Shown here in pieces: positions 18,705-45,060 of a stretch of DNA of 50,280 nt; within the stretch, counting starts at the first letter, position 1; every line of letters begins with the position of its first letter. Both the position numbers and the translations under genes were made by a program. Origin of the DNA: a virus; IMG/VR virus record IMGVR_UViG_3300042731_002780, positions 1-50,280 of that record. One strand, 5' to 3'. The notes beneath the pieces are model-generated. The model ran no database searches. It saw only the letters and a list, made by a program, of their open reading frames with translations, and was not told the DNA's origin.

Positions 18705-19103
18705 TTATGCGTCGGTATAGGCAGGCTGGCCGACAGCGGTAATGCTGAACGTCCGTGCGCTGGATACCGCTCCGGTCAGAACCACGCGAACATAGCGCTT
18801 CAACTGCTGACGATTCAGCACGAGCGTTTCATCCTGCGCTGTGCTGGCCGTTGGTGTAGTGAACGTATCGGCTGCCCCAGTGCTGGTATTCATCAGCGAA
18901 GACGCCGGAACCGCAGCATAAGTGCTGTCATCTGCCGAATGTTCAACCGTAATCGCGGGTGTATCCGTGCCGGTGGCATTGCAGGCCACATTCAGCCACA
19001 CATTGCCGACATAGCTAGACACGTCCAGTGTCGCGCTGTAGTCCGGGTTGGACGCCTGCGCTTCGACGAACAGATTGTCTACATCGAGGTTAAAGGTAAT
19101 CAT
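18705..19103 (-). CDS. Head decoration-like beta protein
   Basis: 132 residues starting ATGA-coupled to the capsid gene stop. It is an Ig-like or jelly-roll beta protein with the pattern VWLNVACNATGTDTPAITVEHSADDSTYAAVPA, commonly found directly after major capsid genes. It may coat the capsid. Exact role unknown. Confidence 0.6.
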   Translation of the reverse strand: MITFNLDVDNLFVEAQASNPDYSATLDVSSYVGNVWLNVACNATGTDTPAITVEHSADDSTYAAVPASSLMNTSTGAADTFTTPTASTAQDETLVLNRQQLKRYVRVVLTGAVSSARTFSITAVGQPAYTDA

Positions 19104-20497
19104 GATGCTCTTACTCCCTTCATGACATAGAAGGCTTCGGGATAGTGCATGATAAAGTCGCTGTAGGTGTAGAAGATCAAGCGTACCTGAAGCGACCCGG
19201 CCAGCGTCATTTCATCAACGATCACTTCCACGTCATTGCTCATGACGTATTCGCCGTACATGAAGTTACCGAGGAAAATGTAGCTGGTATCGGTATTCGT
19301 GCCGGTTGTGATGTTGATCGGCACCTGTGTTGTATTACCGACCTTATACCCAACCAAGTCTTCATACGGTTTCTGGCTGTAGTTTTCATGCAGCAGCGGT
19401 TCGCCGGTGGTGGTCGTCAGACTGCGGAACGTACCACGCGTGCGTGGGTGCATAACCCAGCCGGAGGTATCGCCGTCAAGCTTGACGTTGCCGGTCGCAA
19501 CCTGCGTTTCAGCAGCGGTCAGATCGGTAAACTTGGGCATACGACCATTGGTCGCCAGTGTGATGACGTTAGTCGATGACAGCGTGCTATGACCTTCCAG
19601 CACGCGCAGAATACCGCGAATTTCCGCGCCGGTGTCACTGTTGACCACGCCTTCACCAACCAGAATTTCTTTGTCGATTTGTAGTTTAATCGCGCGGATT
19701 GCCTGATCGCGGATTTTCTGGTCAATCGGCAAACTGGTTTGCATAAGCAGTTGACGCGGGATAATGACCTCGGCAGCGATGGGGCGCAGGAATGCCGTCA
19801 CGGTGCCAAAGGTCGCTTCATCATCGGTAATCGCCTGGTTGATACCAGGACGATAAGCCGACGGCGCAGCGGTCATTTTGTTGACGGTGTAGGTGCCGAC
19901 GCCACTCACGCGAGTCTGCTGCACGCCCATATCAAACATCGTGACTTCAGCGGTCAGCGGGTCGAGAATATCCGGGGCGATTTCCTGCCCCAACATATAG
20001 CCGCCCAACGGGCCAACATACGGATTCTGAGCGCGGAACGATGAGTCTTTGTGATAGATACCGCGCACGAAATCACCGAGGCCCGGTTTCGCCGCACGTC
20101 CTACCTGGTTGACCGTTGTCGCACCATTGCCGCCGACATAACCGGGGGCGGGTTTCGGTTCAACCTGCTTATAAGCATCGCGGGCCGCATTCTGAAACTG
20201 CGCGGCGCGTTCGGCTTTACGCTTCTCATACGCTTTGATGGCTTCCGGCAGGGCTTTGGCCAATTCCTGGTCAACCCACATCTGCCGTTTGTCTTCGCTC
20301 ATTTCAGCAAGCGCTTCTTCCATCTCGGCAATACGTGCATTCATGGCGGTATTCAACTCATTCGCCATTTCCTGCTGGACTTCCGGGGGCATTGGTTCCC
20401 CGCCATTCTGCTGCTGGGCCGCATTGGCGTACTCGATTAACATCTGAGCCGCTTCTTGTACCATCGCAGCGATTTGCTGTAGCTTTTCAGCATCCAT
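19100..20497 (-). CDS. Nested in-frame major capsid protein (internal start)
   Basis: The ATG at 20497 begins MDAEKLQQIAAMVQEAAQ, exactly at the start of the helical delta domain, and has AGGAG at 20511-20507 with a 9-base spacing. The product would be 465 residues, a usual length for an HK97-type capsid precursor with delta domain. The site is seen directly; its use is inferred. Confidence 0.65.
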   Translation of the reverse strand: MDAEKLQQIAAMVQEAAQMLIEYANAAQQQNGGEPMPPEVQQEMANELNTAMNARIAEMEEALAEMSEDKRQMWVDQELAKALPEAIKAYEKRKAERAAQFQNAARDAYKQVEPKPAPGYVGGNGATTVNQVGRAAKPGLGDFVRGIYHKDSSFRAQNPYVGPLGGYMLGQEIAPDILDPLTAEVTMFDMGVQQTRVSGVGTYTVNKMTAAPSAYRPGINQAITDDEATFGTVTAFLRPIAAEVIIPRQLLMQTSLPIDQKIRDQAIRAIKLQIDKEILVGEGVVNSDTGAEIRGILRVLEGHSTLSSTNVITLATNGRMPKFTDLTAAETQVATGNVKLDGDTSGWVMHPRTRGTFRSLTTTTGEPLLHENYSQKPYEDLVGYKVGNTTQVPINITTGTNTDTSYIFLGNFMYGEYVMSNDVEVIVDEMTLAGSLQVRLIFYTYSDFIMHYPEAFYVMKGVRAS

Positions 20498-21241
20498 GTC
20501 TGGATTCTCCTGTCGTTTGTCTGTTGATAACGGTAGTGCAGATTCAGAACGCTTTACCAACGTTTTCAGGTCTGTACCTGTTGTCGCTGCCTGTAAGGCT
20601 CTCTGGTATGCACTCCGGGTGTAAATCTGACTGGCATAAGGCACCGCCGCCGGACGGGGCGTTAACGTGGCGTCAATAATCGCCCAGCGTTCAATATGCC
20701 CATCTTCGGCCACTTCAACACTCTGCGGCAATGCGCCACTTGACCAGCCGAGTTTGCCATCCTCAGCCAGTTTGTAAACCTCTTGTTCCCATTCATCACG
20801 GAGTTTCAATTGTGCCTGGAACCATAACCCGGCATCGGTAAACTTTGCCCGCATCGGCGTGCCTAAGTTGCGTATGTTGAGCGTTTCATCAAGTCCGTGA
20901 TCGTACAACACAACCGCGCGTAATGGCGGAAAGTCTTCAGTCACATAATCCGTGTTAGCATCAAAATACGTCCCGTACCAGTCGGGATTGTCCGGCGTAT
21001 TGAATGGCACAAGCAATCCCTCAACGATACCATTACCGACCGCGCGCACCAAACCGCCAGAGAAGTATTGCACATCTTCGGAGCGTGTCTCATTGGCATA
21101 CAACGCGGCTATCTGGGCGTCGGCGGCGTCCTCCGTTGCATGGCAGCCTAAACTCGCGCCGATACGGTTGCCGTCCGCGTCTTTTTTGTAGACACATATC
21201 TGTTCGCCGCCTTTCCATTTTCCGTAAGGCATCGTTACCAA
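19100..21241 (-). CDS. Prohead protease fused to HK97-fold major capsid protein
   Basis: 713 residues. The first 55 residues form a Cys/His module (GCHATEDAADAQIAALYANE) often found at the start of phage head proteases. Residues about 60-210 resemble an S78-type prohead protease, with His115 (YDHG) and Ser167/168 (GWSSGA) as candidate catalytic residues. Residues 245-350 are a helical delta/scaffold region. Residues 390-713 are an HK97-fold capsid protein. Normally these are two genes; here the frame is unbroken. A ribosome site at M249 suggests capsid protein is also made alone, which would explain how capsid subunits outnumber protease. It overlaps the portal gene by 7 bases. Confidence 0.85.
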   Translation of the reverse strand: MVTMPYGKWKGGEQICVYKKDADGNRIGASLGCHATEDAADAQIAALYANETRSEDVQYFSGGLVRAVGNGIVEGLLVPFNTPDNPDWYGTYFDANTDYVTEDFPPLRAVVLYDHGLDETLNIRNLGTPMRAKFTDAGLWFQAQLKLRDEWEQEVYKLAEDGKLGWSSGALPQSVEVAEDGHIERWAIIDATLTPRPAAVPYASQIYTRSAYQRALQAATTGTDLKTLVKRSESALPLSTDKRQENPDMDAEKLQQIAAMVQEAAQMLIEYANAAQQQNGGEPMPPEVQQEMANELNTAMNARIAEMEEALAEMSEDKRQMWVDQELAKALPEAIKAYEKRKAERAAQFQNAARDAYKQVEPKPAPGYVGGNGATTVNQVGRAAKPGLGDFVRGIYHKDSSFRAQNPYVGPLGGYMLGQEIAPDILDPLTAEVTMFDMGVQQTRVSGVGTYTVNKMTAAPSAYRPGINQAITDDEATFGTVTAFLRPIAAEVIIPRQLLMQTSLPIDQKIRDQAIRAIKLQIDKEILVGEGVVNSDTGAEIRGILRVLEGHSTLSSTNVITLATNGRMPKFTDLTAAETQVATGNVKLDGDTSGWVMHPRTRGTFRSLTTTTGEPLLHENYSQKPYEDLVGYKVGNTTQVPINITTGTNTDTSYIFLGNFMYGEYVMSNDVEVIVDEMTLAGSLQVRLIFYTYSDFIMHYPEAFYVMKGVRAS
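20507..20511 (-). promoter_or_regulatory. Internal Shine-Dalgarno for the capsid protein
   Basis: AGGAG, 9 bases before the in-frame ATG at 20497 inside the protease-capsid frame. It sits at the boundary between the two domains, as the holin site at 517-522 does. Confidence 0.65.
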
Positions 21242-23970
21242 CTCCCTCGCGCCCGACCTTCAATCGCTGCTAAATAGTGCTGACATTGCCACCCGCCGCA
21301 TTCATAGGATTCACCGTCCTGCTGAGGCACCATGTTCTTACGTGTCCAATCTTTGAGCCGGTGACGTTGTCCTTTCAAGCGCTGGCAGTCCGTACACGAT
21401 TCCTCACCGTCATCCCCAACAAATTCAACCATCTGGTTTTTAGCGGCACTCTCGAAACCGGCATAATACGCGGGCTGAATGGAATTACCCCACCACATTT
21501 GAGCGCGCTGTTCGGCCATTTCCGGCGTAACCGCTTCGTCTTTGAACAGTCGCTTTGACAGGTTATTGATATATTCGCGCTGATTCAGGTTCAGTTCGGT
21601 AATCTTCTCCTGCTCGGCCTGGTCAGGTTCATCATCCACGCCGCCCGCCTTGAGACCGTCCCGATAGGCTGCATTGATCCCTCTCAAGACGATACGGCGC
21701 ATCTCAATACCCCACTGCCGCCGGTTCATATGCCCATCTAACGCGGCTTTGATCGCGGTATCAAACGCATCTTCAAACTGTAACCGGGTTGCCTGTACAT
21801 CCCGCACCGCCATTTCCTGCCGGATTTTACGGAATATCTGGCAGTCATCCCACGACGGCGCGGCCTGAATCGCGGTCATGATACGCTCGGCTTTGTCGCC
21901 TCTCAGGTAGGTGCATTCGTAGCCGTCCCGTTTGGCACGGTTGGTAAAGTGCTGCTTGGTAAACAGCATCCAATGGTCAAGTTCTTTAAGCTGTGCCTCG
22001 TGCAAGGTATCGGGCGTTTCCAGTTCCCATGTCTCGACGCCTTCACTGTGCTGGTGTATATGCCGGGAAACCTCCGGCCAATCGCGTTCGTACACAATTT
22101 CGCCATTGTAGGACAGTTGTAACGCCTGCGGTTGCACGCTCAATTTGCTGTCAAACGTCCAGCGCTGCGGCTTGTCCTGTGCGTAACCCATCGTGATATG
22201 CGGCGCGTACATCGAAGGTTGACTGTAAGGTGATAGCGTGTACCCTTGCCCTTCGAGCCAGTCCGCCGTGCTGGTTTGCAGGTCGGTTAGCGTCTGGTTT
22301 TGCCGGATACGGAAATGCACCGCGTATTCCCCGACACCCTGAAAATAATTCAGACTACCAACCTTGAGCGCCAACGCCGGGAGATCAACCGACTGGCACC
22401 AGGACATGAGCCGCGCTAAGCCACCGTCGTCCACGTCCGGCAGGTGAATGAGCGTCACGTGGAATGTGTCCGGCGCGTTCCATTCAACCTGCACACCTTT
22501 CATAAACGTTTTGACCTGCTGTTGCAACGTGACCAGACTGGCATCATTCGCCAATCCGAGCATAATCGTGCCGGAGTGTGTTTCCTCACGTTCGGCCTGT
22601 GCAGGAAGTAACGCGGGCGTCTGAGTAGCGGGTAACGCCGTCGGTGCGGTGGGTGTGATGGGTTGTGCCTCTGGCATAACGATAGACCCATCCGGCTTGA
22701 CATACACACCGGCTTTAATCTGTTCCAGCGTCAATCCATTCGATAACCGATCGCCACCTTCTAACGGCGGATCGCCCATCTTCTCGCGGGCCTCATTCAG
22801 CGTATTCAGGTTATTAACGTAAGCGTTGCCAATTTCATACAGGTTAACATTGGTCGTGTCGGCACTTTCCAACGCGGAAAAATCAAATTCAAAGCGTACA
22901 TCACGGCTCTTATCCAGGTGTGGCAAACACAGATCATTGATATAGTTCTGCAAATCAAGCGCAATCGGTTTGATCCGCAGTCGGATAAAGTTCTCCATGA
23001 GCGCGGGCGCATCTTTGTACGGCGTGGCGCTGTTATCACCCACCAACGCTTGCGGAACACCGAACGCTGAAAAGATCGCGGTGACAACCGGGTCTTCGAT
23101 GGACATGTGCTTACTGATGTCCGGCTCTTCATTGTTTGTCACGTCTACCGGCTGATTGAACAAAGCCGTGCGGCGGCGGTTCCGAACACCTCGCATTTCC
23201 TGAAAAATCGCCTTGATCGTTTCCCACTGCGAGTCTGTCCATTGATCTCCCGATGGCGGGGCAATCGTCTGCCCTGGCATAGCATCGTTCTGGAAAAACG
23301 CCTGCAAAAACGTATCTAGGTTCTGGTCAATATTGATCTTGTTAATGATGCTAGCAACCAGACTCGCCCCGCGAGTATCGTAAAACGGGTTGAATCCATG
23401 ATTGTACGCAATGACATCCGGCTCATATGTCTGCTGTCCACCCGGCGCACTATAATAAAACCGGGTCACGTAACCACGCGAATCCTCCACCGTCATACCC
23501 TGGCTATTCAACACCTGCAAACGCGGACTGCTGTTGTACTGCGACATCAGTTTCAGCGTGTAAATGGCATCGGTTAGCATACTGTTGTACAGCATGGCTG
23601 ATATGAGGCCGATGTTTAACTGCCGTTGGTGCCAGCGGGTCGCCTCATACCAGATGTGACGCGGCTTGACATCATCCGATCTGGCTAATTCTTTATCATT
23701 CTTGCGGTCGTAGGTCGCATTGTAAATAACCCGCGTCGGTATCTGACCGATAGCATAGGCGTAGGTATCCACGCATGTCCGCACCGCCCACACGGCAGTA
23801 TAAGCACGCGCAAAGCTGTGGTTGCTGTCGCCATAGTCCGCGCCGCCGCCGTAGGGGATTGCTAACCCATTGATTGTCATCGGCAATTGGTAATTCGGAA
23901 ATGGAAACGTTGTCCCACGCAGCACCTGCGCCGCTGTGCGTAACCGTGTAAGAAATCGTGTCTCAGGCAA
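21235..23970 (-). CDS. Portal protein fused to a 2H-phosphoesterase-like domain and a MuF-like head protein
   Basis: 911 residues. Residues about 1-430 are an HK97-type portal (WAVRTCVDTYAYAIGQIP near 61-79, SAFGVPQALVGDNS at 301-314, LNEAREKMGDPPLEGGDRL near 391-409). After a Pro/Thr/Ala linker, residues 465-635 carry two H-x-T motifs, His504-Val-Thr506 and His591-Ile-Thr593, the signature of 2H phosphoesterases (2'-5' RNA ligase-like). Residues 645-911 are a MuF/SPP1 gp7-like minor head protein ending in a Cys cluster (Cys859, Cys862, Cys891, Cys896). The portal forms the DNA channel, and MuF-type proteins are packed in the capsid, so the enzyme-like domain may be inside the virion. It overlaps the terminase stop. 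Confidence 0.85.
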   Translation of the reverse strand: MPETRFLTRLRTAAQVLRGTTFPFPNYQLPMTINGLAIPYGGGADYGDSNHSFARAYTAVWAVRTCVDTYAYAIGQIPTRVIYNATYDRKNDKELARSDDVKPRHIWYEATRWHQRQLNIGLISAMLYNSMLTDAIYTLKLMSQYNSSPRLQVLNSQGMTVEDSRGYVTRFYYSAPGGQQTYEPDVIAYNHGFNPFYDTRGASLVASIINKINIDQNLDTFLQAFFQNDAMPGQTIAPPSGDQWTDSQWETIKAIFQEMRGVRNRRRTALFNQPVDVTNNEEPDISKHMSIEDPVVTAIFSAFGVPQALVGDNSATPYKDAPALMENFIRLRIKPIALDLQNYINDLCLPHLDKSRDVRFEFDFSALESADTTNVNLYEIGNAYVNNLNTLNEAREKMGDPPLEGGDRLSNGLTLEQIKAGVYVKPDGSIVMPEAQPITPTAPTALPATQTPALLPAQAEREETHSGTIMLGLANDASLVTLQQQVKTFMKGVQVEWNAPDTFHVTLIHLPDVDDGGLARLMSWCQSVDLPALALKVGSLNYFQGVGEYAVHFRIRQNQTLTDLQTSTADWLEGQGYTLSPYSQPSMYAPHITMGYAQDKPQRWTFDSKLSVQPQALQLSYNGEIVYERDWPEVSRHIHQHSEGVETWELETPDTLHEAQLKELDHWMLFTKQHFTNRAKRDGYECTYLRGDKAERIMTAIQAAPSWDDCQIFRKIRQEMAVRDVQATRLQFEDAFDTAIKAALDGHMNRRQWGIEMRRIVLRGINAAYRDGLKAGGVDDEPDQAEQEKITELNLNQREYINNLSKRLFKDEAVTPEMAEQRAQMWWGNSIQPAYYAGFESAAKNQMVEFVGDDGEESCTDCQRLKGQRHRLKDWTRKNMVPQQDGESYECGGWQCQHYLAAIEGRARGSW

Positions 23971-25444
23971 AAATCACCTCGATCTTAGAGTTAAATTGTG
24001 CGCCATGCCACGCCAGCGCCAACGCAATCACCGTGTCGTCATGTGCCCCATTGCCGCCTTCATAACTCCAATGGCCTGACGCAGTTTGTTTTGAGATAAA
24101 AGAGCGTATCTCATGGCGCAATTCCGTAATGGCTTGCAAAGTTACGCCCTGCTCATGGAGCGCGTGATAAACACCTCGAATAAGCGGTGGTTTGCTTTGA
24201 GGCGTCGTATCGAAAGCATACAAATCAATGCCAGTGTAAAGCAGGTTGCCGTTCTCATCATATTCGCCACTTTGCAAAAGTTCGATGTTCGTTTGCCCCA
24301 TGTTGTTGGCTTCACCAATGACCTGCGCGTTATTCCAGTAATGCGCTTTTCGCGCAATCTGGGCACGCATATCTTGCCATTTGAGACGGCTTATACGTAA
24401 CATATCAACCATCTGATAGGTACGTTTATTCAGAACAATAAGAACTGTCCAATCGTTTGTTTGGCCAAAATCTAACCCAGCTATATATACCTCGCCCGGT
24501 ACGGGTTGGGCTTCTAATGGCGCGGTATACACATGCTCGATATTACCAAAGAAGCCTTTCCCGGATGTCAGGAAACATTGATACGGGTCTTCTGGATATT
24601 CTTGTGCAAATGTAAACGGGAGTTCTTGCTGTTTTCCGCGCCGCCATTTGATCTGTTCCGGTGTCAATCCGTGCTGGTCAACAAGCGCTTGTTCATCTGA
24701 TGTGTAACTTATTTTTTCACCCGGTTCCAGTTCTAGCCGGTATTCGTCCTGCCACCACCAGGGGTAGAAGTGTAGCGTCCATTCGCCATCCCCATTCAGC
24801 GCCTCCATGCACCGATCATAAAACCAACCCTGTGCGCCGTTTGCGGTACTTTCCAATTCAATTGATCCACCGATGGGCACACCCTGAAGCAACCCGGACA
24901 TGATCGAGTCCGCATCTTTCCAGAAAGCAACCTCACTTCCATGCACGCGGTTATACGTACCACCACGTCCAATGTTAAGACTGCCTGCCGTTGCAATTGT
25001 TACTTCAGAGCCGGTATGTCCGTATACAGTTGTCGTTGCATTATCGAGGCTTCGTGGCGGACGTATCGCATCAGATAGGTTCTCATAGAACCGTTTTGCC
25101 ATACGCCTGAGTTTCGCGGTGGTATCCGCGTCATGTGCCAATGTCGCCTGTAAACTAGTCTGCGACACCGCTTCAACAAACATATCCGCTTGAATGGCGG
25201 TACTAATACCAACCTGCCGAGCTTTCAATATCAGGTCGCGACCGGTTCGATGTGTGGCATAATCCTGCTGAATGCGGTTCGGTTGATAACGGGTTAATGA
25301 TAACTGCTTATCCAGGATAGTAAGGTATGCAGCATAGTCAACATCAACCGCGCCCGTTGCCGTTGTGCCTAATCCAACGTCAATCAGTTCATCGTCGTCA
25401 ATGTCATTGTACGTAGTGTTCGTTGGTGAGACGATCAATGACAC
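23963..25444 (-). CDS. terL: Terminase large subunit
   Basis: 493 residues from a GTG at 25444 with AAGGAG 10 bases upstream, overlapping the small-subunit gene by 41 bases. The packaging ATPase has a deviant Walker A, KARQVGIST (74-82), preceded by the RYQPNRIQ region. The C-terminal nuclease shows GLDFGQTND (about 322-330), GEANNMG and HDDTVIALAL (about 468) acidic motifs. It cuts and drives DNA into the prohead through the portal. Order small subunit, large subunit, portal is standard. Confidence 0.92.
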   Translation of the reverse strand: MSLIVSPTNTTYNDIDDDELIDVGLGTTATGAVDVDYAAYLTILDKQLSLTRYQPNRIQQDYATHRTGRDLILKARQVGISTAIQADMFVEAVSQTSLQATLAHDADTTAKLRRMAKRFYENLSDAIRPPRSLDNATTTVYGHTGSEVTIATAGSLNIGRGGTYNRVHGSEVAFWKDADSIMSGLLQGVPIGGSIELESTANGAQGWFYDRCMEALNGDGEWTLHFYPWWWQDEYRLELEPGEKISYTSDEQALVDQHGLTPEQIKWRRGKQQELPFTFAQEYPEDPYQCFLTSGKGFFGNIEHVYTAPLEAQPVPGEVYIAGLDFGQTNDWTVLIVLNKRTYQMVDMLRISRLKWQDMRAQIARKAHYWNNAQVIGEANNMGQTNIELLQSGEYDENGNLLYTGIDLYAFDTTPQSKPPLIRGVYHALHEQGVTLQAITELRHEIRSFISKQTASGHWSYEGGNGAHDDTVIALALAWHGAQFNSKIEVIFA

Positions 25445-25874
25445 GATCCATGAACTCCTTAGGGTCTTTGCCTGCTTGCGTTAATGCCTGAATAAAATTA
25501 GGTAGCACGCCGATGATCTCAGTCGGCAGTCCTTTGAGCAACCGCATTTTGTCAACCGCCGTCGCCCCGGCAATCACCGCATCCTTACCGGACATCTCCT
25601 CAATCACGTCATCACGCGACGCATGAGCCAACATCTTGTAAGCGATGTCTTCGAATACAATTTCGAGTTCTGGCCTTTTTTCGTTTACCAAATCGGAAGG
25701 GGGTGGGTTTTGTTTGCCGTGAAACCAGCGATGCAACGTAGCCATCGGTACGTCCAACGCTTTCGATACATACGTCAATGCACCCTCTTGCGTGGGGTAT
25801 CCCTGAGACTCAAGCATCACAACGGCTGATGCTCTGAACTTGTCATCATATCGCTTACGTCTACGTTTCATCAC
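25404..25874 (-). CDS. Terminase small subunit (probable)
   Basis: 156 residues. An N-terminal HTH region (SKALDVPMATLHRWFHGKQ, about 32-50) follows a basic start (MKRRRKRYDDKFR), as in DNA-recognising small subunits. The C-terminal half is helical, as in the ring-forming part of this family. It lies directly upstream of and overlaps the large subunit, the usual arrangement. Confidence 0.75.
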   Translation of the reverse strand: MMKRRRKRYDDKFRASAVVMLESQGYPTQEGALTYVSKALDVPMATLHRWFHGKQNPPPSDLVNEKRPELEIVFEDIAYKMLAHASRDDVIEEMSGKDAVIAGATAVDKMRLLKGLPTEIIGVLPNFIQALTQAGKDPKEFMDRVIDRLTNEHYVQ

Positions 25875-30126: not shown

Positions 30127-30870
30127 TCAAAACAATCGTAACTGCTCTGGCTCTGGCACGACCTTGATGAATGGCCGTTTGAACGCCGCCGGTTTGCCGT
30201 TGTACTCATGTCCGAAAAGTATTCGATTCGTGTCCGGGCGTTCGCAACTTCCCTGCTTGTGATACCATTCCACCCCAATCTCAAGCGCCTGCTGTCCGAT
30301 GTCATATGCCCACTGTGGATCGAAATGGCGGCGGTTCTTACCACTCTCACCCCCCGTTACAATCCATTCAATCAGTGTCAAGTCAAGCCCATCGACGCAG
30401 CCAATCATCGGCTCAATGGACAGCCAGTAGTGTTTCGCCGGAATGCGCTTGAGGATGTCCGCACGGTAGTTGTAATCACCGTTTTCGATGCTCACGCCCA
30501 TCCACAGGTTATCCGGCCAGGTCAACTCATGCCCGTGTGCCTCAAAGCGCTCCGGTCGTTTGGTCGTAAACACGAACTGGCAATCGTCACGCTGGGCGAC
30601 CTTCGCGAATATATCCCGCCAGTGTTCCAGTGAAGCAAGCCCGAAATCAGACATGAAATCCAACCCGCATACACTACCCGACGGTATCTCGTCAAACCGC
30701 CGCGCAATGGTAGGAGCCATTTCCGGCTTAGGCATCCCGTCGAAAACCTGCCCTAACCGTGACATCATGCGCTCTGCATAACAATTCGCGCATCCCGGCG
30801 ATACCTTACGACAGTTGAAACTCTGTGTTGATACGAGCCAGTCCAGATATGATATGCTGCTTTTGCCCAT
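30127..30870 (-). CDS. Phage Gp37/Gp68 (DUF5131) family protein
   Basis: 247 residues with AGGAGG 10 bases before the ATG. The N-terminal SFNCRKVSPGCANCYAERM carries Cys20, Cys27 and Cys30 (C-x6-C-x2-C) followed by YAE, the mark of this family, which is distantly like radical-SAM proteins and may hold an iron-sulfur cluster. Later motifs are DFMSDFGL, FVFTTKRPERF, WMGVSIEN, WLSIEPMIG and VTGGESG, all usual for the family. Its reaction is not known. It is common in phages and mobile elements and is the last gene of the replication arm here. Confidence 0.85.
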   Translation of the reverse strand: MGKSSISYLDWLVSTQSFNCRKVSPGCANCYAERMMSRLGQVFDGMPKPEMAPTIARRFDEIPSGSVCGLDFMSDFGLASLEHWRDIFAKVAQRDDCQFVFTTKRPERFEAHGHELTWPDNLWMGVSIENGDYNYRADILKRIPAKHYWLSIEPMIGCVDGLDLTLIEWIVTGGESGKNRRHFDPQWAYDIGQQALEIGVEWYHKQGSCERPDTNRILFGHEYNGKPAAFKRPFIKVVPEPEQLRLF

Positions 30871-40218: not shown

Positions 40219-40847
40219 TGTTCCCTCCATATGCTGATGCGAAGATCATCATCAGAATACAAAAATACGCCATCCGGCAAGTAGACATAAAGCAAAACAG
40301 CATTGGTGAATTGTTCGTGAACGCTTGCCTCGACATTCGCCACAATATATTCCCGCTTGCTCAGCACGTCTTCCTGCAACGCGCCACGCACACCAGCCGC
40401 CAGCGCATCACCAACCGTGTATTGTTCGCCGTCGATGTCTACCGCGCCAGTGTTAACCGTCTCAGTGATGGCAGCTTGCACGCTCTTGACAACGTCTACA
40501 CCAATGTCACCGGTCACGCTTTTGGCGGCAATGGCGGCTACCTGGCGCATGTGGTCAATATCCGGGTCTGCCAACGCTTCGAGTGCGCCATTGGTAAAAC
40601 GCGACACGCTGTCGTGTCCTACCAGCGCTTCTCTCACTCGCTCCTGCCGGATGTACCGCTGAATGGTGCGTAGCGAAACGTCAAAATTGCGTTCAATATA
40701 GGCTGTCCATGTCTTGAATCCTAGAGCCTTGTGCGCCTGCCCATCATGCAACTGTTTCAGTAGACTAGCTAATTCGTTCGCGGTTGCCATAGCCTTCCGA
40801 GTCAACGTGCGGGCTTCGTCTTCGCTTAGTTGGATGTGGTTGGTCAT
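40215..40847 (-). CDS. HTH DNA-binding protein
   Basis: 210 residues. Residues about 35-75 give an HTH: ALGFKTWTAYIERNFDVSLRTIQRYIRQERV, like the ParB/KorB-type or DUF3102-like HTH in phages. The middle is helical (90-140) and the end is beta-rich. ATGA-coupled to the nuclease gene upstream. Possible regulator of the leftward arm or partition-like protein; the phage does not show a ParA partner. Confidence 0.6.
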   Translation of the reverse strand: MTNHIQLSEDEARTLTRKAMATANELASLLKQLHDGQAHKALGFKTWTAYIERNFDVSLRTIQRYIRQERVREALVGHDSVSRFTNGALEALADPDIDHMRQVAAIAAKSVTGDIGVDVVKSVQAAITETVNTGAVDIDGEQYTVGDALAAGVRGALQEDVLSKREYIVANVEASVHEQFTNAVLLYVYLPDGVFLYSDDDLRISIWREQ

Positions 40848-41326
40848 TTGGCAATAGCCTCAATAACCTCATCAGGAATCGCTAACGAATACGGAGCGCG
40901 GCGTAAATCATTCAATCGTTGTAACCGATCCTTTGCTTTCTGAACTCGATCCCTTGCTTTCTGGCGTTCTATTCTTTTTTGCTCACGAAAGGCACGCTTG
41001 GACTCGGTTTGTATTTGTATAGGGATAATGGTTTCCCTGTCCCAATTGATGAGCCGATGCGTCGTTTTCAATGATCGGATCATTTGAGTGATTTCATCGG
41101 AGAATAAAAACCATTCCCCTCTCACGCGCAAATGATCTAATTGTTGGTGTATCTGGGGTTCGTAGCAACCGAAGTATTTAAAAGTGGCCAGCACTTCTAG
41201 CTTTTCCGGTAGGTAAGATTGTATGATAGAAATGCGGCGGGCCATGTTTGTCGATATGCCAATTTTGACATACTTCTGGAATTTGATAAAGTATAACCCT
41301 TGATCGGAGAACACTCTACGCCCCAT
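40844..41326 (-). CDS. T5orf172/MUG113-type GIY-YIG-like nuclease
   Basis: 160 residues from the ATG at 41326; earlier in-frame ATGs lie inside the regulator gene. The N-terminal half has the family pattern: GLYFIKF, YVKIGIST, RRISIIQ, then LEVLATF, a Glu/His stretch and RGEWFLF. This is the GIY-YIG-related fold of T5orf172 proteins, which are probable DNA nucleases. The C-terminal half is a very basic coiled coil (about 105-145). It might be a homing-type or anti-host nuclease. It overlaps the regulator by 11 bases. Confidence 0.7.
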   Translation of the reverse strand: MGRRVFSDQGLYFIKFQKYVKIGISTNMARRISIIQSYLPEKLEVLATFKYFGCYEPQIHQQLDHLRVRGEWFLFSDEITQMIRSLKTTHRLINWDRETIIPIQIQTESKRAFREQKRIERQKARDRVQKAKDRLQRLNDLRRAPYSLAIPDEVIEAIAK

Positions 41327-41573
41327 CGTTATTACCCTCATGGCCAATTGGTTCAAAGCGAATCGTCCAACCATAGGCGTTGAGAATGCTAACGACTGTG
41401 TCGAAGTGCGCCCGCTTCCCTTTCGATACGTTCAAAACCGTTCGGTAATTCATGCCGAGTTCTTCCGCAACATTTTTGTAGCCACGCCTTTTTGCACCCT
41501 CCAAAGCTCGAATAAGTGCATCTGGCTGCAATGCCGCATCATGTTGTTCAACTGCCTGTCGAATGGTATCCAT
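41316..41573 (-). CDS. HTH transcriptional regulator (Cro/CI-like)
   Basis: 85 residues. Residues about 20-65 form a helix-turn-helix: GYKNVAEELGMNYRTVLNVSKGKRAHFDTVV, similar to XRE/antitoxin-type regulators (HigA-like). It is the first gene left of the face-to-face promoters and, from its place, is the best candidate for the switch regulator. It would act on the ATGTACA[G/A]T words at 41612, 45810 and 29008. Whether it is a repressor for lysogeny is open, since no integrase is found. Confidence 0.7.
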   Translation of the reverse strand: MDTIRQAVEQHDAALQPDALIRALEGAKRRGYKNVAEELGMNYRTVLNVSKGKRAHFDTVVSILNAYGWTIRFEPIGHEGNNDGA

Positions 41574-44300: not shown

Positions 44301-44528
44301 TTGATTAAGGCACGTATCGAAAATCCCGAAAAGGGCGATTTGCTGGTTTTCGGCTTGAGCCGCGAAAACATCGACCGACTGACAGCAGACCAACCGATTA
44401 AGGTTGATTTGACCGAAATGGGCTTGAAAGGTTCCATACTCATTTTCTTCAAGGAGACAACCGGCGACTTGATTAAGACCATGACGCCATATATCGGAAA
44501 GGACACCAAACTCCATGACAACCTATGA
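44301..44528 (+). CDS. Small early protein with TTG start
   Basis: 75 residues. The TTG at 44301 is preceded by AGGAGGT at a 6-base distance, so it is well supported. Alpha/beta (LLVFGLSRENIDRL, IKVDLTEMGLKGSILIFFKE). It overlaps the phosphatase by 14 bases. Function unknown. Confidence 0.6.
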   Translation: MIKARIENPEKGDLLVFGLSRENIDRLTADQPIKVDLTEMGLKGSILIFFKETTGDLIKTMTPYIGKDTKLHDNL

Positions 44529-45060
44529 ACTGCTGATTTTCGACATTGATGGTACAATCGCCGACCGAGACTCCCACGAATTACTGCCCGGCGTAGAGCG
44601 TTGGATTGATGAATTTTCACAACAACCGCAAAAAACGGTAATTGCCTTTGCGACCAATCAGGGGGGCGTCGGTTTACGCTACTGGATGGAATCTGAAGGA
44701 TTCGGCGAACCCGAAAAGTTTCCATCTGAAGATGACGCCATGAATCACATTCATACCGTGATTGATCATTTGGGGCTTGACGAACAAATGCTGTATTACT
44801 ATTTACTCGTTTGTTTTGCCTATCAGTCGAAGAAGTCGGGCAAGTGGGGGCCAGCGCCAGAAAACGCGCCTAATCCGAGTAGTTGGCGGCAGGATTGGCG
44901 TAAGCCTGCACCGGGGATGCTTTTGCAAGCGATGGAATATGCCCAAACAATTCCCGCCAAAACATTGATGATTGGCGATAGCAATGAGGATCGCGAAGCC
45001 GCAGAGGCAGCGGGTATCCGATTCATTCATCGCGACGATTGGTTTGGTTCCGCAGAATAG
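44515..45060 (+). CDS. HAD-superfamily phosphatase
   Basis: 181 residues. Motif I is DIDGT with Asp10 as nucleophile and Asp12 as acid; motif II is ATNQGG; the Lys region is RKPAPGML; motif III is GDSNEDREAAEAAG. This set matches the polynucleotide 3'-phosphatase/histidinol-phosphatase group, so it may repair DNA or RNA ends or act on a nucleotide. The substrate cannot be told. It overlaps the upstream gene by 14 bases. Confidence 0.85.
   Translation: MTTYELLIFDIDGTIADRDSHELLPGVERWIDEFSQQPQKTVIAFATNQGGVGLRYWMESEGFGEPEKFPSEDDAMNHIHTVIDHLGLDEQMLYYYLLVCFAYQSKKSGKWGPAPENAPNPSSWRQDWRKPAPGMLLQAMEYAQTIPAKTLMIGDSNEDREAAEAAGIRFIHRDDWFGSAE

Follow-up and report, generated by a model that had tools for sequence, protein, structure and literature searches.

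A phage portal protein with an exchangeable LigT-like 2H phosphoesterase domain and its possible role against host defences

Why should the portal protein of a phage carry a phosphoesterase domain? The question is raised by one open reading frame (ORF) in the environmental IMG/VR virus record IMGVR_UViG_3300042731_002780, for which no host is listed. The whole stretch analysed, 50,280 bases, is called the window. The ORF occupies 21235..23970 on the minus strand, with a TTG start at 23970 and the stop at 21235. Its product of 911 residues is composed of a portal domain, a proline-rich linker, a 2H phosphoesterase domain and a MuF-like C-terminal end (C-end). An earlier note, made from the DNA alone, had given the same frame without its strand and had proposed that the 2H domain is carried by the virion and acts on host defence signals or on RNA ends. 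The frame, the domain order, the 2H identity and the intact catalytic tetrad of that note were all borne out. With a probability of about 0.5, the product is read here as a portal subunit in which a metal-independent 2H phosphodiesterase cassette, placed between the portal body and the MuF-like C-end, counters host defences.

The 2H domain covers residues 462–635 (22066..22587, minus strand). The domain scanned alone, a search proposed in the earlier note, scored above the curated cut-offs of both PF13563 (30.8 bits against 27) and PF02834 (30.0 bits against 23.3). TIGR02258, named RNA 2',3'-cyclic phosphodiesterase, matched residues 482–601 at 5e-11 and spanned both catalytic motifs. Its score of 42.7 bits is below the equivalog cut-off of 65.7, so that the domain is LigT-like and is not filed as an equivalog. 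A 2H profile made from 15 family members matched the solved RNA 2',3'-cyclic phosphodiesterase 5h7e at 7e-6 and PH0099 at 0.004. The LigT and 2'-5' RNA ligase Pfam models (PF02834, PF13563) were matched by all 15 members scanned. In contrast, the Acb1 model PF23474 gave no match with the window in the Pfam scan and weak matches in 6 of the 15 members (best 1.4e-4). The scores of E. coli ThpR (13.5 bits) and T4 57B, an Acb1 (10.8 bits), with the family profile are too close to decide, and that of 57B comes mainly from the second motif. The placement in the 2H superfamily was therefore upheld, and Acb1 is not the closest relative. A fair statement is that the domain is a predicted LigT-like 2H, whose relation to Acb1 appears weaker and at the level of the superfamily.

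The first catalytic motif, H504-V-T506 (22453..22461, minus strand), and the second, H591-I-T593 (22192..22200, minus strand), are located exactly where they had been put before. Two HxT motifs 80–95 residues apart also appeared in 551 of 20,000 shuffles of the window protein (about 3%), and in none of 54 other portals. By itself, the pair of motifs counts for little because it arises by chance at this rate. Therefore, the 2H claim rests on the profile matches and on the conservation of the motifs in 24 of 24 members.

These 24 distinct members are the window and 23 more from environmental viruses, and the 2H domain is always within the portal protein. Viral contigs scanned with an alignment of portals yielded L007 and L008, which are about 56–60% identical to the window protein and have the 2H domain, plus 54 distant portals, none of which carries the domain according to the 2H hidden Markov model (HMM). 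Scans of viral contigs with the 2H domain only (A4, then A6) gave L065–L075 and new contigs among L084–L097, and a third, portal-based scan gave L106 and L107. Every confirmed match of the 2H profile in viral contigs was a long portal ORF, of 880–1179 residues where the contig end does not clip it. The cultured phage set yielded none of the members. H504, T506, H591 and T593 are invariant in all 24 members, the only other invariant columns being F543 and L561, and the spacing between the two motifs is 85–89 residues. The conservation of the second motif is partly built in, since this motif was among the search patterns; the first motif was never a search pattern. The second motif is also kept in seven members in which it departs from that pattern or which were reached by a portal pattern (L084, L088, L092, L093, L096, L106, and L107). 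A loss of the motifs in relatives, which the earlier note had named as counter-evidence, was seen in none of the 24 members.

The possibility of an assembly artefact, raised by the same note, was addressed with the independent contig L002. Its protein of 930 residues is 81% identical to the window protein and collinear end to end; L007 and L008 are collinear relatives as well. Between the window and L002, the ratio of nonsynonymous to synonymous substitution (dN/dS) is 0.10 for the whole protein, 0.04 for the 2H block (dN 0.04), 0.05 for the portal core and 0.25 for the N-terminal 50 residues. The dN is much greater in the C-end and in residues 364–435. The dS is about 1, which is close to the saturation of synonymous sites. 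Because L002 is collinear and the 2H block has a dN/dS of 0.04 despite the nearly saturated dS, both an assembly artefact and decay of the domain are excluded. The 2H domain is under strong purifying selection. From its sequence, the domain is very probably an active phosphodiesterase.

The history of the domain was followed by comparing 17 sufficiently long proteins in 136 pairs. The median pairwise identity was 22% for the portal, 36% for the 2H domain and 21% for the C-end, and the 2H identity exceeded the portal identity in 132 of the 136 pairs. The identities of portal and C-end were correlated (rho 0.36), whereas those of the 2H domain followed neither the portal (0.04) nor the C-end (0.08). 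Single pairs illustrate this. The identities of portal, 2H domain and C-end were 15, 44, and 15% between the window and L065, 24, 44, and 15% between L070 and L073, and 17, 45, and 32% between L075 and L096. In the approximately unbiased (AU) test, the topologies of the portal and the C-end were rejected by the 2H alignment (p ~1e-5). The portal and C-end trees reject each other too, and the whole protein is therefore a mosaic. An empty site was found in L110, whose portal is 47.5% identical and whose C-terminal part is 36% identical to those of L074. Its proline-rich linker runs straight into the segment that follows the 2H domain in the other proteins. Portal and SPP1-gp7/MuF models match in this one ORF, with the SPP1-gp7 model passed and the 2H domain absent; PF13563 found no other 2H in the 20-kb record of L110. 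Because L110 is a portal-MuF protein without 2H, the enzyme is accessory to the structural job of the portal. The comparisons show that the 2H domain behaves as an accessory, exchangeable and, as predicted from its motifs, catalytic cassette among unrelated portal/MuF backbones. Another architecture at the same junction was observed in L109 (3845–5698), a related portal of 618 residues which lacks 2H and whose C-end does not resemble MuF.

How could such a cassette serve the phage? The C-termini of HK97-type portals face the head interior, and SPP1-type MuF proteins sit there. Judged from known portals, about 12 copies of the 2H domain would be present per head, with the C-terminal half of the protein toward the head interior. 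The earlier note's inference of a domain carried along with the portal is supported. The enzyme would open 2',3'-cyclic phosphates or cut short cyclic or 2'-5' oligonucleotides, and this action would counter host defences that work via RNA cleavage or nucleotide signals. The chances of an anti-defence or anti-RNase role are about even. Cyclic-oligonucleotide signals are a rather unlikely main substrate. Two routes can be proposed. In one, a head protease would cut the 2H domain loose from the portal, and the enzyme would act on entry. In the other, it would act late in the producing cell while free portal monomers build up. For SPP1, gp7 (MuF) gets into the procapsid via portal binding, and virions without gp7 are only about 25% infectious (PMC6316719). 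Fusions of MuF to effectors are also known (PMC5512222, in its passages on such fusions). If the enzyme is delivered, a countermeasure would be present ahead of any phage gene expression. A still wider proposal is that a widespread family of environmental phages bears swappable, catalytically intact 2H domains on every portal subunit and destroys cyclic or 2'-5' alarm signals, either on entry before expression or in the producing cell. This proposal is doubtful.

Several points weigh against the anti-defence reading. The portal-2H protein, or a fragment of it, would have to leave the virion, and a domain that is a covalent part of the portal could reach the cell in an early injection only after being cut from it. 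With no host listed, there is no defence system against which the enzyme could be set. The nearest models of the domain are RNA 2',3'-cyclic phosphodiesterases and not anti-CBASS (cyclic oligonucleotide-based antiphage signalling system) enzymes. The AlphaFold model of the 2H domain, obtained from a 4-sequence alignment, had a mean predicted local distance difference test (pLDDT) score of 40.5 and was not usable. Finally, deep divergence and errors in the alignments may have exaggerated the tree conflict in the AU test.

Other explanations differ mainly in the substrate of the domain. An Acb1-like anti-CBASS enzyme would specifically degrade cyclic di- and trinucleotide alarm signals in infection. 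It would share with the 2H domain the HxT/HxT tetrad, which is H44/T46/H113/T115 in Acb1 and is accompanied there by the stacking residues Y12, W74, F107, and W147 (PMC9117128), and the weak Acb1 matches of the six members point the same way. However, the LigT and 2'-5' RNA ligase models were matched far better by all members, the low score of T4 57B was driven by the second motif, the motif spacing is 69 in 57B against 85–89 in the family, and the stacking residues could not be aligned onto the window domain from sequence. Such a specific activity is unlikely. The same profile results, with 5h7e and TIGR02258 as the best solved relative and named model, would suit RNA end-healing, that is, a ThpR/LigT-like opening of 2',3'-cyclic phosphates on RNase-cut tRNAs or other RNAs for resealing by host ligases. 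Nevertheless, RNA ligase, RtcB and KptA were found in none of 15 records (the window and 14 related records, mostly fragments), which is mildly against a self-contained RNA-repair pathway. There is no obvious advantage in fixing a repair enzyme to a portal. Furthermore, in the treatment of these fusions by Iyer et al. (2017, PMC5512222), 2H domains of the MuF/portal-fused type were never seen with RNA ligases. End-healing also seems improbable. A possible repair partner in the window, a HAD/PNK3P-like phosphatase at 44515–45060, was rejected because it better matches HAD-IIIA and GmhB-type phosphatases. This plus-strand gene, whose PNK3P match is marginal, may encode a nucleic-acid 3'-phosphatase or a sugar phosphatase.

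An RNase delivered by the virion, which would cut host RNA after entry like the proposed MuF effector domains, is favoured in the corresponding passages of Iyer et al. (2017, PMC5512222), with the PBECR domains fused to MuF and portal as the analogue. The swapping of the cassette is akin to that of polymorphic effectors. On the other hand, no immunity gene was recognised nearby, and the described MuF toxins sit at the C-terminus of MuF (PMC6316719), whereas the 2H domain of the window precedes the MuF-like part. A delivered RNase is a doubtful explanation. The chemistry of the domain might even be irrelevant, with the fold binding nucleic acid or shaping the head interior. The 2H domain does sit in an essential head protein, and RNA ends are bound by 2H folds. 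Yet the catalytic residues are the most conserved of the domain (24 of 24), and the related portals of L110 and L109 as well as the 54 other portals do without it. A structural or packaging role is very unlikely. The countering of host defences by the portal-borne 2H enzyme is kept as the preferred reading, at the even chance given above.

The backbone around the cassette is as follows. The HK97-type portal domain takes up residues 51–416 (22723..23820, minus strand). PF04860 matched residues 62–399 at 8e-28 with 97.9 bits against a cut-off of 39.1, PHROG 2662 matched residues 51–410 at 1e-31 and TIGR01537 matched residues 59–405 at 1e-21. The gene adjoins terminase and capsid genes, as is expected for an HK97-type portal. 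A proline/alanine-rich linker of residues 429–461 (22588..22686, minus strand), similar to that of L110, forms the edge of the exchangeable cassette. The segment behind the 2H domain (ELxxW..., residues 636–735; 21766..22065, minus strand) is present without 2H in L110 and L109. The MuF-like C-end, residues 736–911 (21238..21765, minus strand), has a terminal Cys/His cluster and gave no match with the MuF models of Pfam, PHROG and NCBIfam (PF04233, TIGR01641). Its structure model (pLDDT 56.5) had no match in the PDB with E <= 0.001. The C-end profile of the window group matched the C-ends of group C (L065, L075, L088, and L096) at 99.9%, and group C matched canonical MuF C-ends weakly, at 82% and in the Cys-rich tail only; the direct match of the window group with canonical MuF was 3%. 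L073 and L074 pass PF04233, and the same position in L073, L074, and L110 is PF04233/TIGR01641. The label MuF-like is therefore justified by position and by this chain of relatives, although not proven.

Some members showed further features. In L087, at 2453–2700, the portal-2H-MuF ORF apparently starts with a helix-turn-helix segment at residues 5–48, which has weak sigma-70, DeoR and IS630 matches and looks like a small-terminase-like DNA-binding domain fused to the portal. An extra Cys-rich stretch (CENCRWF...CDQY), possibly metal-binding, lies between the 2H domain and the C-end in L071. The impression by eye of a second, degenerate 2H domain in the roughly 200 extra residues at this place in L073 and L075 was dropped, as the 2H HMM did not support it.

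The head module around the gene is conventional, with terS-like, terL, portal and capsid genes in order. The terS-like gene (25404–25874, 156 residues) is at the upstream end. The terL gene (23963–25444) directly precedes the portal gene, and the HK97-type capsid gene (19100–21241), the capsid domain of which is the C-terminal part of the product, follows it; both overlap the portal-2H ORF. Between the window and L002 (3101–4393), the first ~32 residues of TerL are near-identical and the overall identity is 31%, while the flanking small-terminase-like protein and portal are 99 and 81% identical. The body of the terminase has therefore been replaced between near-identical edges. The N-terminal part of the gene downstream of the portal resembles a head protease by eye, and no model confirms this. 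This protease/scaffold-like part, of ~430 residues, is 46% identical between the window and L007 (6629–9070). In L007 its fusion partner is a capsid part that fails to align with that of the window, which is another module swap. Elsewhere in the window, a DUF5131 protein (30127–30870, minus strand), whose match to radical SAM mobile pair protein A is below the threshold, and a protein with a MUG113/T5orf172 domain (40844–41374, minus strand) were observed. A PADLOC search for defence genes gave no match. Two scans of genome contigs for host assignment found no relative, plasmid sequences gave no match, and cultured phages gave matches to the portal part alone or none.

The proposal itself has a precedent. 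Fusions of 2H to MuF or portal, without an RNA-ligase association, are described by Iyer et al. (2017, PMC5512222, Fig. 5B), where RNase action or the destruction of defence nucleotides is proposed. The corresponding passage of Iyer et al. (2022, PMC9503650) repeats the proposal with packaging in the head and injection. The idea of the earlier note is therefore a rediscovery, because the same functional guess is given in these passages. Its remark that the three parts are normally found apart is overstated. The portal-MuF fusion itself is common; Arthrobacter phage Brynnie is annotated with portal and MuF in one chain, as was seen in L110, and 2H fusions to MuF or portal were published in 2017 and 2022. 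An action of 2H domains on portal and MuF proteins against nucleotide-signal or RNase defences has stood as a proposal from 2017 on. The swappable behaviour of the cassette makes the idea easier to test. The 24 sequences with intact tetrad, the natural empty-site relative L110 and the exchange of the domain offer clean constructs and controls.

Compared with known systems, the window domain has the 2H profile over both motifs and the HxT/HxT tetrad in common with ThpR/LigT (TIGR02258, PF02834, PDB 5h7e). The motif spacing is 82 in E. coli ThpR and 85–89 in the portal-2H family. Unlike ThpR/LigT, the domain is embedded in a portal, and its subfamily has H-F-R at 552–554 (H in 22 and R in 20 of the 24 members). 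Acb1 (PF23474, T4 57B) belongs to the same superfamily and has the same tetrad. However, it is a free small protein outside the head, whereas the window 2H is part of the portal chain, and the profile similarity is marginal. With SPP1 gp7/MuF (PF04233, TIGR01641), the C-end has its position next to the portal in common, and L073, L074, and L110 are above the cut-off. Unlike gp7, the MuF-like part of the window is joined in cis to the portal; its Cys/His ending is a variant one, and it falls below the models. The fusions of Iyer et al., as presented in those passages, have the same domain types, 2H with MuF or portal, in one chain, a late or head gene context and the same proposed roles as the window. 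Evidence of cassette swapping, an empty site or selection is not part of those passages. The present analysis adds the evidence of selection, the exchange of the domain among backbones, the empty site and a defined set of 24 environmental members.

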